This document shows positions 2,801-11,470 of a stretch of DNA of 64,000 bases, one piece after another. Source of the DNA: Olsenella uli (lineage in GTDB: Bacteria > Actinomycetota > Coriobacteriia > Coriobacteriales > Atopobiaceae); the NCBI RefSeq assembly GCF_016899935.1, contig NZ_JACJJK010000003.1, forward strand, positions 124,001 to 188,000. The letters run 5' to 3'. The position numbers were made by a program, and so were the translations under genes. The stretch's first letter is position 1; each line of letters opens with the position of its first letter. Below the pieces are notes generated by a model. The model saw only the letters and a list, made by a program, of their open reading frames with translations, did not search any database and had not been told where the DNA came from.

Positions 2801-3004
2801 CTACCCCTTCATTCTTTTTAGTAGGAGGTGCGTGCAAATAAGTGTGATGGCCGCCGGGTCGTCCAGCGCTTCGTCAATGCCGTCCACAACGTATTCCGGG
2901 TTGTGAGTCGGCAACTTGTCGTGATATTCAAGGAGCTCTTTGACGCTGGTTATTTTTTGTCTGTCGATTGTTTCGATTAGATTGAGGATGGCGGGTACGT
3001 CCAT
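2801..3004 (-). CDS. Small hypothetical protein, 67 aa
   Basis: Start chosen at ATG 3004 because GGAAGGAG lies at the ideal distance; the same upstream string precedes the cargo gene of cassette B. An in-frame ATG 27 bases earlier lies in the leader and is probably not used. The product is mostly helical and acidic (MDVPAILNLIETIDRQKITS...), with no membrane segment. It is the first gene after the leader and is translationally close to the 418-aa gene, so the two may act together. No known family. Confidence 0.6.
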   Translation of the reverse strand: MDVPAILNLIETIDRQKITSVKELLEYHDKLPTHNPEYVVDGIDEALDDPAAITLICTHLLLKRMKG

Positions 3005-3033
3005 AACCTGCTCCTTCCAAAAGCAGCCCATTA

Positions 3034-3216
3034 GAGACTGTGGAAGAAGTCCCGCGTGTCAAACAGTGAGGGGGAGTCTCCGCCCACAGTTGCCATACTG
3101 CCCTTGGTGTTCACGGTATACGTGAGTCACATCAGGGAGGGAGAAGACTCCCCCTGACTAGAGACTCACGGAAACTATGTTGTGAATACCACCCGTTAGG
3201 GCGGCAGTGTGGCAAC
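3034..3216. ncRNA. Structured element, copy A (leader or non-coding RNA)
   Basis: This ~183-bp block is strongly conserved with 5412-5590. Nested pairings are visible: GTTGCCATACTGCC (3089-3102) with 3203-3216, GGTGTTCAC (3106-3114) with GTGAATACC (3182-3190), GTGAGTC (3122-3128) with GACTCAC (3163-3169), and an inner TCAGGG...CCCTGA hairpin. The second and third stems have different sequences in copy B but remain paired, which indicates selection on structure. The imperfect pairs are G-U if read on the + strand but A-C if read on the - strand, favouring a + strand RNA. Against that, a -10-like box sits at its edge for - strand transcription and the cargo genes lie downstream on -. Strand is therefore left open. 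Confidence 0.65.
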
Positions 3217-3220
3217 TTGG

Positions 3221-3249
3221 ATTCTATCAGAGAGGGTGGTTGTTGACAC
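3221..3249 (-). promoter_or_regulatory. Candidate promoter of cassette A
   Basis: On the minus strand TAGAAT (3226-3221) follows GTGTCA (3249-3244) with a 17-bp gap. Transcription would begin at about the first base of the conserved element. The same TAGAAT lies at the same place in copy B. Confidence 0.4.
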
Positions 3250-3260
3250 TAAGCCAACAG

Positions 3261-3296
3261 CTAAGAAAAAGGGACGCCCCGCAAGGGGACGCCCCG
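3261..3296 (-). terminator. GC-rich hairpin with T run upstream of cassette A
   Basis: On the minus strand GGGGCGTCCCC and GGGGCGTCCC flank TTGC and are followed by TTTTTCTTAG. The stem has internal mismatches, unlike its perfect counterpart at 5635-5669. It follows the remnant stop at 3320, so it probably once ended the transcript of the decayed gene. Confidence 0.45.
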
Positions 3297-3319
3297 CAAA
3301 TCAAGACTTGTTGCCCGCC

Positions 3320-3376
3320 CTACTCTTGGGACTCTCGCTTCTGAGCACGCTTCTCCGCTGCCGCCATGTTCGCGGG
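3320..3376 (-). pseudogene. Remnant of the C-terminus of the 'A-type' gene family
   Basis: The minus strand encodes KPANMAAAEKRAQKRESQE followed by a stop. This matches the end of the gene at 6521-7039 (ARNKAAAAKRAAKRGE). Only the last ~19 codons remain; upstream the sequence turns into the antisense of the tail-protein gene, so a recombination joint lies near 3370-3380. Confidence 0.5.
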
Positions 3377-4049
3377 CTTCTGGGGAGACGGGCTTATCCC
3401 CAACACCTCAACCGCACTCTTGGTTGAGCCTATCGAGAACTCTTTCGCGGTGGTGGTGAATCCCGGTGACGCCTTCATCAAGGGACGCTTCTACCAGAAC
3501 ACCGAGGACAGGCAGTTCACTCTATCCAACGGCAATTCCCAAGAGCGGGTGGACTACATAGCACTACGCTTCGACTCGGAGAAGCGAAGCGTCTACCTCA
3601 AATACTTGGAGGGTGCGGAAGGGGAGGGAAACCCGCTTTTCGCACGCTCAACCGGACTCTTCGACTTGCTGTTGGCGAAGATAACCGTTCCCGCCAACGC
3701 TCAGTTCCTCACGGACGAGATGGTTGAGGACTTGCGTGGAACGAGTGATTGCCCTTGGATAAACCTACGCTTCGACTTGGACGCTATCACTTCCAGTTTT
3801 CAAGCGTGGTACGACAACGTTAGGCAACTCTTGGACGAGGACGTTGCCGTACAGCTCCAAGAGCAGATAGACGAGAACGCGGATAACATCACAACGCTCA
3901 ACTCGACTATCGCCAACTTGGTAGTACAGAACCAACAACTCCAAGAGCAACTTGAGAATGAACGCAAGTACGACAACGTTATCAAGGACGGTAATATCTA
4001 CCTGAACACACGTCCGTATGACCCAACCATTGATACAGACATTCCATAA
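3366..4049 (+). pseudogene. Phage tail/receptor-binding-like protein, 5' truncated
   Basis: The protein reads FWGDGLIPNTSTALLVEPIENSF, then PGDAFIKGRFYQNT, RVDYIALRFDSEKRSV and a C-terminal coiled coil (about residues 155-205). This pattern (FxGDGxxPN, pGxAxIxGxxY, RxDxxxLRxD) is typical of the N-terminal domain of tail-associated and receptor-binding proteins of Gram-positive phages. Those normally have about 25-40 more residues before FWGDG, which are absent. The ATG at 3366 lies inside the antisense of the decayed A-type gene and has no convincing ribosome-binding site. I infer truncation by recombination. Expression is uncertain. Confidence 0.6.
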
Positions 4050-4053
4050 CGAA

Positions 4054-4084
4054 ACGGGCACCCACCTCTTGCGGCGGGTGCCCG
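4054..4084. terminator. GGGCACCC-type terminator closing cassette B
   Basis: ACGGGCACCC and GGGTGCCCGT form a 10-bp perfect stem followed by TTTTTT on the + strand, and by TTTCGTT on the - strand. It lies between the tail-protein gene (+) and the 425-aa gene (-), so it probably works for both. It is a near copy of 1486-1520. Confidence 0.75.
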
Positions 4085-4105
4085 TTTTTTGTATTAGCGC
4101 GACTC

Positions 4106-5383
4106 TTACTCCTCTTCCTCTTCTTCATCCTCTATAACCGGACAATCACCTTCCAAAAGCCAGAGGTGATAGGGTTCAACCTCTATCGACACTCCACGTA
4201 TGGTTGACAGCTCTACATCATCGTAAAGCTGAATCAGCACATCGGCTTCGAAGGTGCTGGGCTTTTTGGCTTTGCGGACGTTGCGGTTGCGCAGGGTGCT
4301 GTAAGTATTAAGGTAGCCTTCGAAACCAAGCTCTTCCGTATAACAAATGTGTCCGAATCCATCGCCGCAAAAATATCCCTCTCCGATAACCTCGTTATTG
4401 AGTTTAGCGACTAGTCGAAGAGAACCATCAATAATCGCGAGTGTGTTGAAGAAGTGGGGGTAACCAACTGTTACCTCTATTGTTGCGACAAGGTTTTTAT
4501 GTGACTTGCTGAACTTCCTTTCTTTTACAGTCACTTGCAGAGAATCGAAGTACTTGGCTGACTCTTTATCATCTGAGCAAATGCGTCCATCAATCGCATC
4601 TTTGAAATAGCCGAGTTCTTCAAGAAAACCCTCTGCACGAATCGCCTCTGTGTCTTCGTCTGTTGGCTTGGAAAATGTTTCCTGAAGAGTATTTTGGAGC
4701 GAATCATATGTAGCTTGCGCGCGTTCGTTCTGGGCGCGGGTTCTATCTGCGGCAGCAACACCGGCGGCTGTTCCAAAAAGTGCGCTATTGATGGTTGCCG
4801 ACGCAACCGTGCTTTTGGGCTTTGGCTTCATTCCAGCAGAAGCGATGAATTGCCCGCGCAGCTTTATTCGTTCGTGCCAATCATCTACGAGCTTCTTACA
4901 AATCTTCATTTGCTCAAGCGTGTTCGTATAATATTTTTCTTTTCCAATAAGTTCAGCGCGCGCCTTCTCAGCTTGAACCTCATCGCACTCTTGCCGCCTT
5001 GCGGCATCCTTCTTCTCGCGTTCTGCGGCTTCGAAACGCTCCTTGCCAAGCTCAAAATATCTTTGAATGTCCCGTTCACTCATGTTTGAATCGTTGAGGA
5101 TGTTGCGAGCGACAAGAATAATTTCAGATTCGTTTGAACTCCAATCAACAATCTTCCTTTTGCGGCAACCGCGATAAAGGGTGTCGACTTTCTTGAAGTA
5201 TTCGTCTTCTTCACGTTGCTTCTGTTCGGCTATGGCACGAGCCTTCGCTTCCTCTGCCTGTTTTTGTTCGGCCTCATCTTGTGCCTTTGCCTTTTTGGCG
5301 GATTGATATGTGCCGATAGCTCCGAGAATGGCGATGAAAGCAGCAAAGATAATAACAATGAGATTGTGTGAATTGGCATCCAT
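4106..5383 (-). CDS. Membrane-anchored coiled-coil protein, cassette B cargo
   Basis: Start chosen at ATG 5383, six bases after GGAAGGAG; the frame extends upstream into the conserved leader, which is not expected to be coding. The 425-aa product has an N-terminal membrane helix (about residues 7-25, NLIVIIFAAFIAILGAIGTY), a long K/E/A/Q-rich coiled coil (about 28-170), a short Gly/Ala segment near 210 and a C-terminal mixed domain, ending in an acidic tail of eight glutamates with one aspartate nearby. No family recognised. Overall plan (one helix, coiled coil, soluble C-domain) is like the cassette A protein though I see no sequence match. It is followed by the paired terminator. Confidence 0.65.
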   Translation of the reverse strand: MDANSHNLIVIIFAAFIAILGAIGTYQSAKKAKAQDEAEQKQAEEAKARAIAEQKQREEDEYFKKVDTLYRGCRKRKIVDWSSNESEIILVARNILNDSNMSERDIQRYFELGKERFEAAEREKKDAARRQECDEVQAEKARAELIGKEKYYTNTLEQMKICKKLVDDWHERIKLRGQFIASAGMKPKPKSTVASATINSALFGTAAGVAAADRTRAQNERAQATYDSLQNTLQETFSKPTDEDTEAIRAEGFLEELGYFKDAIDGRICSDDKESAKYFDSLQVTVKERKFSKSHKNLVATIEVTVGYPHFFNTLAIIDGSLRLVAKLNNEVIGEGYFCGDGFGHICYTEELGFEGYLNTYSTLRNRNVRKAKKPSTFEADVLIQLYDDVELSTIRGVSIEVEPYHLWLLEGDCPVIEDEEEEEE

Positions 5384-5411
5384 GCTCGCTCCTTCCAAAA
5401 GCAGTCCGATA

Positions 5412-5590
5412 GAGACTGTGGAAGAAGTCCCATACATCAAGACAGTGAGGGGGAGTCTCCGCCCACAGTTGGCACACTGCCTTCGGTGCCTACGTGTACG
5501 TAAGCAGTCTCAGGGAGGGAGAAGACTCCCCCTGACTACCGCTTACGCTAGGTTGTTAGGCACCACCCGTTAGGGCGGCAGTGTGGCAAC
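5412..5590. ncRNA. Structured element, copy B (leader or non-coding RNA)
   Basis: Second copy of the element at 3034-3216. Pairings: ACTGTGG (5415-5421) with CCACAGT (5463-5469); GTTGGCACACTGCC (5468-5481) with 5577-5590, one mismatch; GGTGCCTA (5485-5492) with TAGGCACC (5557-5564); GTAAGC (5500-5505) with GCTTAC (5541-5546); TCAGGG...CCCTGA hairpin at 5510-5535. GGGGGAGTCT (5449-5458) is also a perfect complement of AGACTCCCCC (5523-5532), which would compete with the hairpin, giving either a pseudoknot or a switch. It sits upstream of the minus-strand cargo gene with only its ribosome-binding site between. Confidence 0.65.
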
Positions 5591-5594
5591 TCTG

Positions 5595-5623
5595 ATTCTA
5601 CCAGAGGGGTAGAGGAATATAAT
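5595..5623 (-). promoter_or_regulatory. Candidate promoter of cassette B
   Basis: TAGAAT (5600-5595 on the minus strand) is positioned as in cassette A. The hexamer 17 bp upstream is ATTATA, a poor -35. On the + strand the same AT-rich stretch reads TATAAT, so direction is not settled. Confidence 0.3.
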
Positions 5624-5634
5624 TTAGCTACGAG

Positions 5635-5669
5635 CTAAGAAAAAAGGGCGCTCCGCGAGGGAACGCCCC
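5635..5669 (-). terminator. Intrinsic terminator after the B-type gene at 5688
   Basis: On the minus strand GGGGCGTTCC and GGAGCGCCC pair around a short loop and are followed by TTTTTTCTT. It lies 19 bases after the stop of the 90-aa gene and before the candidate promoter of cassette B, separating the two transcription units. Confidence 0.75.
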
Positions 5670-5687
5670 GATTGTCATACGCTTTAC

Positions 5688-5960
5688 CTAATAATTACGT
5701 GAAATCTTAAGCAGGGTTTGCTGCTCTTCAGAAAAGGTTGCTTGGAACTCCTCTGAATGGAACACATCACTGAAACCCTCAACTCCATCCTTATCAAGGG
5801 CTGCGGACAATAGCGCCTTCTGCTCGTCGGTTAGGCTATTGAGAAGTTCTTTGTATGCGTCTGCCGCACGCCGACCCCTCTTTTTTGCTCTCTCCAACCT
5901 CCGTTGGATGTCCAGAGACTCTATGAAGTTCAGGGTGTCCCACGGTTCCACCTTTGTCAC
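5688..5960 (-). CDS. Hypothetical 'B-type' protein, 90 aa
   Basis: Begins with GTG overlapping the stop of the fragment upstream (GTGA), with AAGGA six bases before. The product is helical and charged and contains SLTDEQKALLSAALDKDG. The neighbouring gene at 6241 has the matching block SLSEEQKALYCEASKDI, so the two are paralogs. No known domain. It is the last gene before a strong terminator. Its position directly after an A-type gene or fragment repeats the order seen upstream. Confidence 0.55.
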   Translation of the reverse strand: MTKVEPWDTLNFIESLDIQRRLERAKKRGRRAADAYKELLNSLTDEQKALLSAALDKDGVEGFSDVFHSEEFQATFSEEQQTLLKISRNY

Positions 5961-8633: not shown

Positions 8634-8635
8634 CT

Positions 8636-8666
8636 CTGTGAATTGGGGACAGTCCCCAATTTACAG
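8636..8666. repeat. GGGACAGTCCC palindrome (REP-like), AATTG arms
   Basis: AATTGGGGAC and GTCCCCAATT flank one A, extended by CTGT and ACAG. It lies between convergent genes and can form a hairpin in either transcript. It shares the GGGACNGTCCC core with sites at 10298, 11444, 18542 and 31183 while its outer arms differ. Confidence 0.7.
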
Positions 8667-10256: not shown

Positions 10257-10297
10257 AATTATAAGCAATTGTTCCTCATCCAGCTTCGTCCGAGAAT

Positions 10298-10324
10298 GTG
10301 GAAAAGGGACAGTCCCTTTTCCAC
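10298..10324. repeat. GGGACAGTCCC palindrome (REP-like), GTGGAAAA arms
   Basis: Perfect 13-bp arms GTGGAAAAGGGAC and GTCCCTTTTCCAC around a single A. It lies in the short divergent region before the cyclophilin-like gene, so a hairpin would form near the 5' end of that transcript. Confidence 0.75.
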
Positions 10325-10718: not shown

Positions 10719-11441
10719 ATGTCACTATCTGCAGGCATGACCGAGTTCGAGGGGACCGACCCGGAGTTCGCGGAGCGCTTCGCCTACTTTGCGGGCGAGG
10801 AGGTGCCCGGCGAGCCCACGGCCGAGCTCCCGGCGCGCGAGCGCTCCCTCGCGATCCTGGCGGCGCTTCTCGGCTGCCAGGGCGCAGAGCAGTTCCGCGT
10901 CACGCTGGCCGAGGCGCTTGACGCCGAGGCCGTCACCCCCGTCGAGGTGCGCGAGGTCGTCTACCAGGGCACGGCGTATCTCGGCATCGGCCGGACCCGC
11001 CCGTTCTTCTCGGCCATGAACGAGGTGTTTTCCGAGAAGGGCGTGGGGCTCCCGCTGCCCGCGCAGGGCACCACGACGCTCGAGACGCGCGGCGCCGCCG
11101 GCAACCAGAAGCAGGTCGACTACTTTGGCGAGCACATGCGCGAGAGCTGGAAGACCGGCGCCCCCGAGCGTGCCAACGCGAACCGGTGGCTCGCCGAGAA
11201 CTGCTTCGGAGACTACTACACGCGCGGCGGCCTCTCGGACCTGGACCGCGAGATGGTCACGTTCTGCTACCTCGCGGCGCAGGGCGGCTGCGAGCCGCAG
11301 GCCACGGCGCACGCGGGCGCCAACATGAACCTGGGCCGCACCAAGGACTTCCTCTACCGCGTGGTCATGCAGATCCTGCCCTACATCGGCTACCCGCGCA
11401 GCCTGAACGCCCTTGCCTGCATCGACGGCGCCGCCAAATAA
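10719..11441 (+). CDS. Carboxymuconolactone decarboxylase-family protein, two domains
   Basis: 240 aa, start after GAGAGGAG. Two CMD-like helical domains: about 45-110 (AILAALLGCQGAEQFRVTLA...) and about 170-235 (TFCYLAAQGGCEP, then TAHAGANMNLGRTKDFL). Family members are decarboxylases, AhpD-like thiol peroxidases, or uncharacterised; here the cysteines at the domain starts and a histidine in the second domain would permit redox chemistry. Cupin and aldo-keto reductase neighbours recur with CMD proteins in quinone or electrophile-response loci. The exact reaction is unknown. Confidence 0.8.
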   Translation: MSLSAGMTEFEGTDPEFAERFAYFAGEEVPGEPTAELPARERSLAILAALLGCQGAEQFRVTLAEALDAEAVTPVEVREVVYQGTAYLGIGRTRPFFSAMNEVFSEKGVGLPLPAQGTTTLETRGAAGNQKQVDYFGEHMRESWKTGAPERANANRWLAENCFGDYYTRGGLSDLDREMVTFCYLAAQGGCEPQATAHAGANMNLGRTKDFLYRVVMQILPYIGYPRSLNALACIDGAAK

Positions 11442-11443
11442 CG

Positions 11444-11470
11444 TGGAAAAGGGACTGTCCCTTTTCCACA
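11444..11470. repeat. GGGACTGTCCC palindrome (REP-like), GTGGAAAA arms
   Basis: Arms GTGGAAAAGGGAC and GTCCCTTTTCCAC around T, two bases after the CMD stop codon and 20 before the next start. Same arms as 10298-10324. A hairpin here could stabilise the upstream mRNA. Confidence 0.75.

Follow-up and report, generated by a model that had tools for sequence, protein, structure and literature searches.

A covarying minus-strand leader in Olsenella uli and related bacteria: a probable new class of translational cis-regulatory RNA

The preQ1, SAM-II and c-di-GMP-II classes are translational riboswitches that have a pseudoknot and sequester the Shine-Dalgarno (SD) sequence, and riboswitches for cyclic di-GMP (c-di-GMP) are found in many copies per genome before surface-protein genes. 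The element described here is present twice in a 64,000-nucleotide stretch of Olsenella uli DNA (the window, G000:C71:124001-188000, part of a 2.13 Mb genome). It resembles preQ1, SAM-II and c-di-GMP-II in that it is a folded leader with a long-range loop-tail helix and a predicted hiding of the SD by an anti-SD strand. Unlike them, it has a core of ~150 nt made up of four stacked stems plus a side hairpin, its loop-tail complement is mostly 13-16 bp long, and Rfam 15 holds no convincing match to it. As judged from sequence comparison, the element probably represents a new class of cis-regulatory leader, read from the minus strand, which would control translation of the gene behind it.

The two window copies are minus-strand 5′ leaders at ~3217-3005 and ~5591-5384, and each runs from an extended -10 box to the SD and start codon of a minus-strand gene. 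In copy 1 the full unit is bounded by the -10 box at 3221-3229 (TGATAGAAT) and the start codon at 3002-3004, and in copy 2 by the -10 box at 5595-5603 (TGGTAGAAT) and the start codon at 5381-5383; from -10 box to ATG the copies are identical in 188 of 231 aligned columns. A first-pass annotation of this DNA had reported a structured element of ~180 nt. The structured copies are real, and the intervals given for them were too short, as the unit spans the whole distance from -10 box to start codon.

Relatives were collected with two covariance models, one (R1) made from four copies in the minus-strand sense and a second (R2) built from ten R1-stage members, on which the census rests. Three reverse-strand matches (L022, L023 and the window) were subtracted from 64 model matches to give 61 members; L078 and L081 are unmatched, and the further matches L089-L102 stand outside every count. 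An alignment of 52 members was made with R2.

Folding energy alone does not give the strand, because both strands of both copies beat all shuffles (200 of 200): z is -4.0 and -6.6 on the minus strand, and -6.2 and -4.7 on the plus strand, for copies 1 and 2 respectively. The strand is fixed as minus because a promoter motif adjoins the outer stem P1. The motif TGnTAnnnT is found at most 24 nt upstream of P1 in 50 of the 61 members, against 2.3% in shuffled upstream DNA, and several of the 11 members that lack it have, by eye, a -10 box without the TG. The copy 1 promoter reads GTGTCA-17-TAGAAT with the TG, and the transcript start is expected ~7 nt downstream of the -10 box, at the foot of P1. 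These boxes, together with the SD and start codon at both window copies, bear out one suggestion of the first-pass annotation, that of a minus-strand leader belonging to a new leader or riboswitch class. The other suggestion, a stand-alone RNA from the plus strand, is scarcely credible. Such an RNA would fold as well, and the two A-C mismatches of copy 1 would become G-U pairs in it. Among four copies compared, those mismatches are confined to copy 1, and over the 52 aligned members the bias is reversed, with 147 G-U pairs against 62 A-C mismatches in the minus-strand sense. The minus-strand -10 box, SD and start codon likewise speak against it, and the plus strand of copy 1 scores 27.4 bits against 149.3, as is expected of a model built on the minus sense.

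An intrinsic-terminator-like hairpin is situated upstream of each window leader on the minus strand (3271-3295 for copy 1, 5645-5669 for copy 2), and a terminator scan of the two window copies found no such site inside either of them. Given the promoter, the G-U excess and this terminator placement, transcription most probably begins at P1 and continues into the gene. The placement, as seen in the two window copies, also speaks against transcription attenuation; attenuation or leader-peptide control is hardly to be expected here. A peptide might be encoded in some members, as an open reading frame (ORF) of at least eight codons lies behind an SD-like string in 22 of the 61 leaders, and five Olsenella-type members share the ORF start position and have similar peptides. 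Across the class the ORFs vary in place and in peptide, and 39 of the 61 leaders are without any. A leader peptide for the whole class was rejected, as neither place nor peptide is conserved beyond those five members. In these five (the window copies, in the regions of 3096 and 5475 on the minus strand, and L022, L023 and L032) the possible short ORF begins with ATG or GTG behind AAGG, would encode a MATVGGDSPSL-like peptide and overlaps the tail of the leader.

In the order in which they would be transcribed, the parts of copy 1 are the 5′ strand of P1 (AGTTGCCACACTGCC, 3203-3217, partner 3088-3102), the P2 hairpin (GCCCTAACGGGT, 3191-3202, as placed by the 52-member alignment), the 5′ strands of P3 (3182-3190, partner 3106-3114) and P4 (3163-3170, partner 3121-3128), and the P5 hairpin (3132-3157), which contributes box A (AGGGGGAGTCTTC, 3143-3155) as loop strand to the long-range helix. 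After the 3′ strands of P4 (3121-3128), P3 (3106-3114) and P1 (3088-3102) come the box B tail (ACTGTGGGCGGAGACTCCCCCT, 3069-3090), of which 3069-3081 pairs with box A and the 5′ part can pair with box C; box C itself (ACTTCTTCCACAGTC, 3036-3050), with box B or the SD region as possible partners; and box D, the SD (GGAAGGAG, 3011-3018), sequestered in a predicted hairpin at 3011-3049. Copy 2 has the same order on the same strand: P1 (5577-5591 with 5467-5481), the P2 hairpin (5565-5576), P3 (GGTGCCTA, 5557-5564, with 5485-5492), P4 (5541-5547 with 5499-5505), the P5 hairpin (5510-5535) with box A (5521-5533), the box B tail (5448-5469), box C, the putative anti-SD (5414-5428), and the SD (GGAAGGAG, 5389-5396).

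All strings that the first-pass annotation had named are found in both copies at the positions it assigned. The stems that differ in sequence are GGTGTTCAC (3106-3114) with GTGAATACC (3182-3190) and GTGAGTC (3122-3128) with GACTCAC (3163-3169) in copy 1, and GGTGCCTA (5485-5492) with TAGGCACC (5557-5564) and GTAAGC (5500-5505) with GCTTAC (5541-5546) in copy 2. The complement GGGGGAGTCT/AGACTCCCCC is present at 3070-3079 and 3145-3154, and at 5449-5458 and 5523-5532. The compensatory changes that it had read from two copies extend to the 52 aligned relatives, where changes on both sides are seen in 42 of 43 pairs. In this alignment 91.2% of cells pair, against 61.5% in shuffles and 39-44% in slid registers, and the covariation score is 0.651 against 0.185 when shuffled and 0.08-0.105 when slid.

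The complement between box A and box B (A:B) likewise proves to be a further helix that recurs in relatives with base-pair swaps, and the test for it is independent of the alignment. It is uninterrupted in 61 of 61 members, at 9-21 bp and mostly 13-16 bp, with a mean of 14.1 against 8.0 in shuffled interiors, and in 38 of the 61 it is longer than in all 100 of a member's own shuffles. Recognizable anchors in 58 members yield 40 distinct strand pairs; L050, L054 and L061 have no anchor and were left out of this comparison. The 40 pairs keep 13.57 of 14 base pairs, against a mean of 11.68 (maximum 12.50 of 500) when loop strands are swapped among them, although the observed pairing is favoured because the register was picked to maximize it. 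The same positions hold A-U, U-A, C-G and G-C across strand pairs, as can be seen from GGGGGAGUCU/AGACUCCCCC in Olsenella, AGAAGGUAUC/GAUACCUUCU in genome G275 and AAGGGCUUCC/GGAAGUCCUU in genus g76. Thus the comparisons show P1-P5 and the loop-tail helix to be kept through many compensatory changes. A second competitor strand for P1 was considered and set aside; it is long only in L025, L046 and L047, and 8 of 60 members have p < 0.05. L046 and L047 carry a perfect competitor of 12 nt for the 3′ strand of P1. A motif like ACAANNGAATA between the 5′ strands of P3 and P4 is found as a loose pattern in 33 of 61 members, a count that has no chance control.

The fold has no convincing counterpart in Rfam 15. 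Among the 4227 families of Rfam 15, none reaches its gathering score anywhere in the window. A relaxed search of 2950-5700 gave five weak matches, two of which overlap copy 1 (mir-627 at 17.5 bits with a gathering score of 86, and Ocean-VII at 14.9 with 53.5); over ten related loci the relaxed search gave only Pxr, at L025 2682-2795, outside the element, at 36.2 against a gathering score of 80. The suggestion that the element might be raiA or another catalogued RNA is therefore set aside, the relaxed matches being weak and unrelated. raiA is a structured RNA of anaerobic bacteria and presumably has an Rfam family of its own; the present leader adjoins many different genes, on their upstream side, and gives no raiA match at gathering or relaxed threshold. 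No description of the leader was found in the literature, of which supplements and preprints were not covered, so that an earlier listing there is possible. Term searches gave no mention of it in PMC11109978 and PMC8632094, and the Collinsella element of 51 bp described in PMC8040213, which precedes the gene of a ribosomal protein, is different from this leader.

The shape of the leader suggests that translation of the downstream genes is turned up or down. Four strands could pair in a chain: the loop A, the tail B, the anti-SD box C and the SD, D. The anti-SD would be box C, which reads CUUCUUCCACAG in the window and mostly stands 40-52 nt ahead of the start codon. A:B pairing would exclude B:C, and B:C would exclude C:D. 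With A:B formed, C would be free to pair with the SD and translation would be off; with A:B absent, the tail would capture C and leave the SD exposed. A presumed signal would tip the balance between these states in the manner of a riboswitch. The order of synthesis, with B first, C next and D last, would also suit a kinetic switch during transcription.

A candidate downstream ORF is found in 57 of the 61 members, and 43 have an SD-like site and a start codon within 130 nt downstream; the figures for accessibility, B:C and C:D refer to these 43, with start codons chosen by a simple score that is sometimes wrong (L034 has, by eye, a nearer GTG). C:D is supported by the 62 nt ahead of the start, whose folds are more stable than those of shuffles (mean z -2.07, below -2 in 24 of 43), and by an SD that, once the tail is blocked, is accessible at a mean of just 0.16. 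For B:C, the duplex energy has a mean z of -1.79 (below -2 in 16 of 43), the tail's best partner starts 40-52 nt before the start codon in 30 of 43, and a member's own partner beats the mean of those from other groups in 33 of 43.

Several points weigh against a translational switch. The mean SD accessibility rises just from 0.16 to 0.26 when the tail is freed (0.17 with shuffled tails); the gain exceeds 0.3 in 4 of 43 members, and one member shows a loss of more than 0.3. For copy 1 the two figures are 0.02 and 0.27; the SD of copy 2 is closed either way. The energy-based support for the ON state is weak. Support for B:C comes largely from a conserved box rather than from clear covariation: when the two large groups are set apart, 22 members remain, in which a member's own box C ranks 3rd-36th of 43 as partner, and for many of these it is no better a partner than the box C of others. 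The shuffles for the A:B, promoter, B:C and C:D tests keep base content only. The alignment was made to fit a structure developed from the Olsenella copies, and its members are related to one another: two genomes of one genus supply 16 of its 52 rows, and 20 of all 61 members. Despite the structural bias the margin over the slid controls is large. It should also be pointed out that not all members are shown to be translational leaders, because 18 of 61 are without a near start codon (in 14 the one picked is more than 130 nt away, and 4 have no ORF).

The low accessibility figures bear on a different reading, in which the element is a structured but unregulated 5′ untranslated region (UTR) that stabilizes the mRNA or sets a low constant level of translation. 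The predicted SD is indeed mostly closed whether the tail is free or blocked (0.26 and 0.16 accessible). A loop-tail helix kept through base-pair swaps, together with a box C that has two partners, exceeds what a passive stabilizer would need, and the unregulated UTR is judged improbable.

Another reading keeps the leader and its switch and changes the signal: a trans-acting RNA-binding protein, or capture of the 30S subunit at an SD-like loop, would break A:B. The loop strand, taken with the 3 nt before it, contains GGAG, GAGG, AGGA or AAGG in 39 of the 40 distinct strand pairs, and because of this SD-like character ribosome sensing is conceivable; as a speculation, ribosome binding itself might be what is sensed. 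The diverse genes behind the leaders oppose a simple autoregulation by one product and are compatible with a global factor. A purine-rich loop also follows from pairing with the tail, and the proposal names no candidate protein, so a protein or ribosome signal is considered possible but rather unlikely.

To return to the translational leader, the genes behind it seem mostly to encode exported, lipid-anchored or membrane proteins. On a crude hydropathy scale, with no genome-wide baseline for comparison, a hydrophobic segment close to the N-terminus was scored in 39 of 48 products; the 48 are what is left of the 61 members after removal by hand of nine loci with doubtful starts and loss of four without an ORF, and 16 of them are from genus g76. 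In the window, the gene behind copy 1 (2801-3004, minus strand, 67 amino acids) has no Pfam match and is followed by a 431-amino acid ORF (2837-1542, minus strand) with a hydrophobic N-terminal stretch by eye; the gene behind copy 2 (4106-5383, minus strand, 425 amino acids) has a hydrophobic N-terminal segment and no Pfam match above the cut-off. Pfam searches on 45 of the 48 products found BspA-type leucine-rich repeats (5), zinc ribbons (4), SHOCT domains (3), Listeria-Bacteroides repeats (3), choline-binding repeats (2) and EcoRI-type methylases (2); defence models run on the same 45 gave nothing beyond these two methylases. In L046 and L047 the leader precedes an EcoRI-type adenine methylase, an intracellular cargo unlike that of the majority. 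Many of the leaders in genus g76 stand before genes for long proteins with a signal peptide, adhesin-like by our own label.

This arrangement raises the question of c-di-GMP, which was tested because many copies precede exported-protein genes in one genus. Several leader copies per genome before such genes recall the c-di-GMP riboswitches. The leader differs from them in lacking an Rfam match and in that 8 of 20 carrier genomes have no match to GGDEF (PF00990, E 1e-5); of 16 genomes in which no leader was matched, 5 likewise have none. The window's own genome, 99.8% complete, has no GGDEF match either. General sensing of c-di-GMP is therefore unlikely, and c-di-GMP was dropped as a general ligand.

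Two properties by which riboswitches are recognized are present, a 5′ UTR position (-10 box in 50 of 61 members, SD and start within 130 nt in 43 and not in 18) and a covarying fold (52 sequences, 40 distinct strand pairs). A tentative extension of the translational leader, with rather less than even confidence, is that it forms a new riboswitch class, limited so far to the order of Olsenella, which ties the making of exported proteins, adhesin-like ones included, to a diffusible signal other than c-di-GMP through the four-strand cascade of SD-like loop, tail, anti-SD and SD, with a many-gene regulon in one genus, in two genomes of which there are 14 and 15 matches. A strongly covarying new leader in 24 of 123 genera would provide a handle on the control of exported proteins, and its ligand, if there is one, could reveal a signal that these bacteria sense. 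The model is directly testable because one genome holds two copies with divergent stems and a truncated third.

The spread of the class depends on the model used. At E 0.01, R1 matches 6 of the 140 genomes searched in the family and 9 of 395 in the order; R2 matches 41 of 395 in the order, spread over 24 of 123 genera. The threshold is set per genome, and chance alone should give ~4 matches in 395 at this level; in 7 of the 41 carriers even the best match has an E above 1e-4. The order is the search tool's grouping; NCBI places Olsenella in Coriobacteriales. In another family, 26 of 138 genomes match R2. At E 0.001 there are matches in 28 of 396 genomes drawn from the class and in 2 of 396 drawn from the phylum, all within the order, the share of either sample outside the order not being reported. 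Stricter filters, by which weak matches are lost, were in force whenever a search covered more than 40 genomes. The two genomes with 14 and 15 matches, G272 and G273, are of that other family and belong to one genus (loci L051, L055, L069-L088 and L096-L102); many of these leaders stand before long signal-peptide proteins, and they could be a surface-protein regulon.

Nucleotide searches reach less far. With blastn, 4 of 31 genomes of the genus match, and the match in G029 is just 31 nt long and probably due to chance. Scanning named genomes with a pattern turned up three loci, two of them in Olsenella records; the third, L019, is in an alphaproteobacterial record and is taken for chance. Relatives have diverged, as the core in G275 is identical to copy 1 in 93 of 159 columns. 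The leader in G211, from a third family, is identical to the copy 1 core in 143 of 153 columns (93.5%), and this identity across families suggests horizontal transfer of the leader.

That identity could also be looked at as the mark of an element acting at the DNA level, a recombining conserved cassette end of which RNA structure is a by-product. Similar leaders before different genes would fit this, as would the copy in contig C111 of the same genome, whose middle is missing between two similar strings. With every helix showing compensatory changes, and with promoter, SD and start codon in fixed order, this reading is very improbable as a replacement for the regulatory leader, although it may be true in addition. 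The C111 copy (L014 3883-4005), the third in this genome, has lost ~100 nt between CTTCTCCC and CTTCTTCC; it lacks the tail, retains P2, part of P5 and the SD hairpin, precedes a SHOCT-domain protein, and is in effect a natural deletion mutant.

A broad phage origin was rejected, as searches of phages, plasmids and viral contigs gave no convincing leader match. With copy 2 alone as the query (226 bases), blastn had 0 matches among 50,697 phage records and 72,556 plasmid records. Viral contigs were scanned six times with exact patterns, which are narrow enough to miss diverged copies, and gave only L018 and L037, both judged chance.

The window copies are in a short stretch with a truncated virion-type gene (3366-4049) and, by eye, a helicase-like ORF, beyond which the genes are, again by eye, host-like. 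The gene at 3366-4049 is like phage virion structural proteins (phrog_1220), is convergent with the leader-borne genes, and is 5′-truncated relative to longer versions at the same place in C111 and G001. The C111 copy also faces a virion-type gene; by eye only, the neighbours in G001 are similar, G011 has no apparent virion-type gene and an ORF resembling a recombinase lies close to the leader of G275. It would seem that the leader moves together with accessory genes. Elsewhere in the window there are 30-nt near-palindromes, GTGGAAAAGGGACAGTCCCTTTTCCAC at 10295-10324 and 11440-11469 and a diverged one at 8635-8664, which look like a dispersed intergenic repeat.

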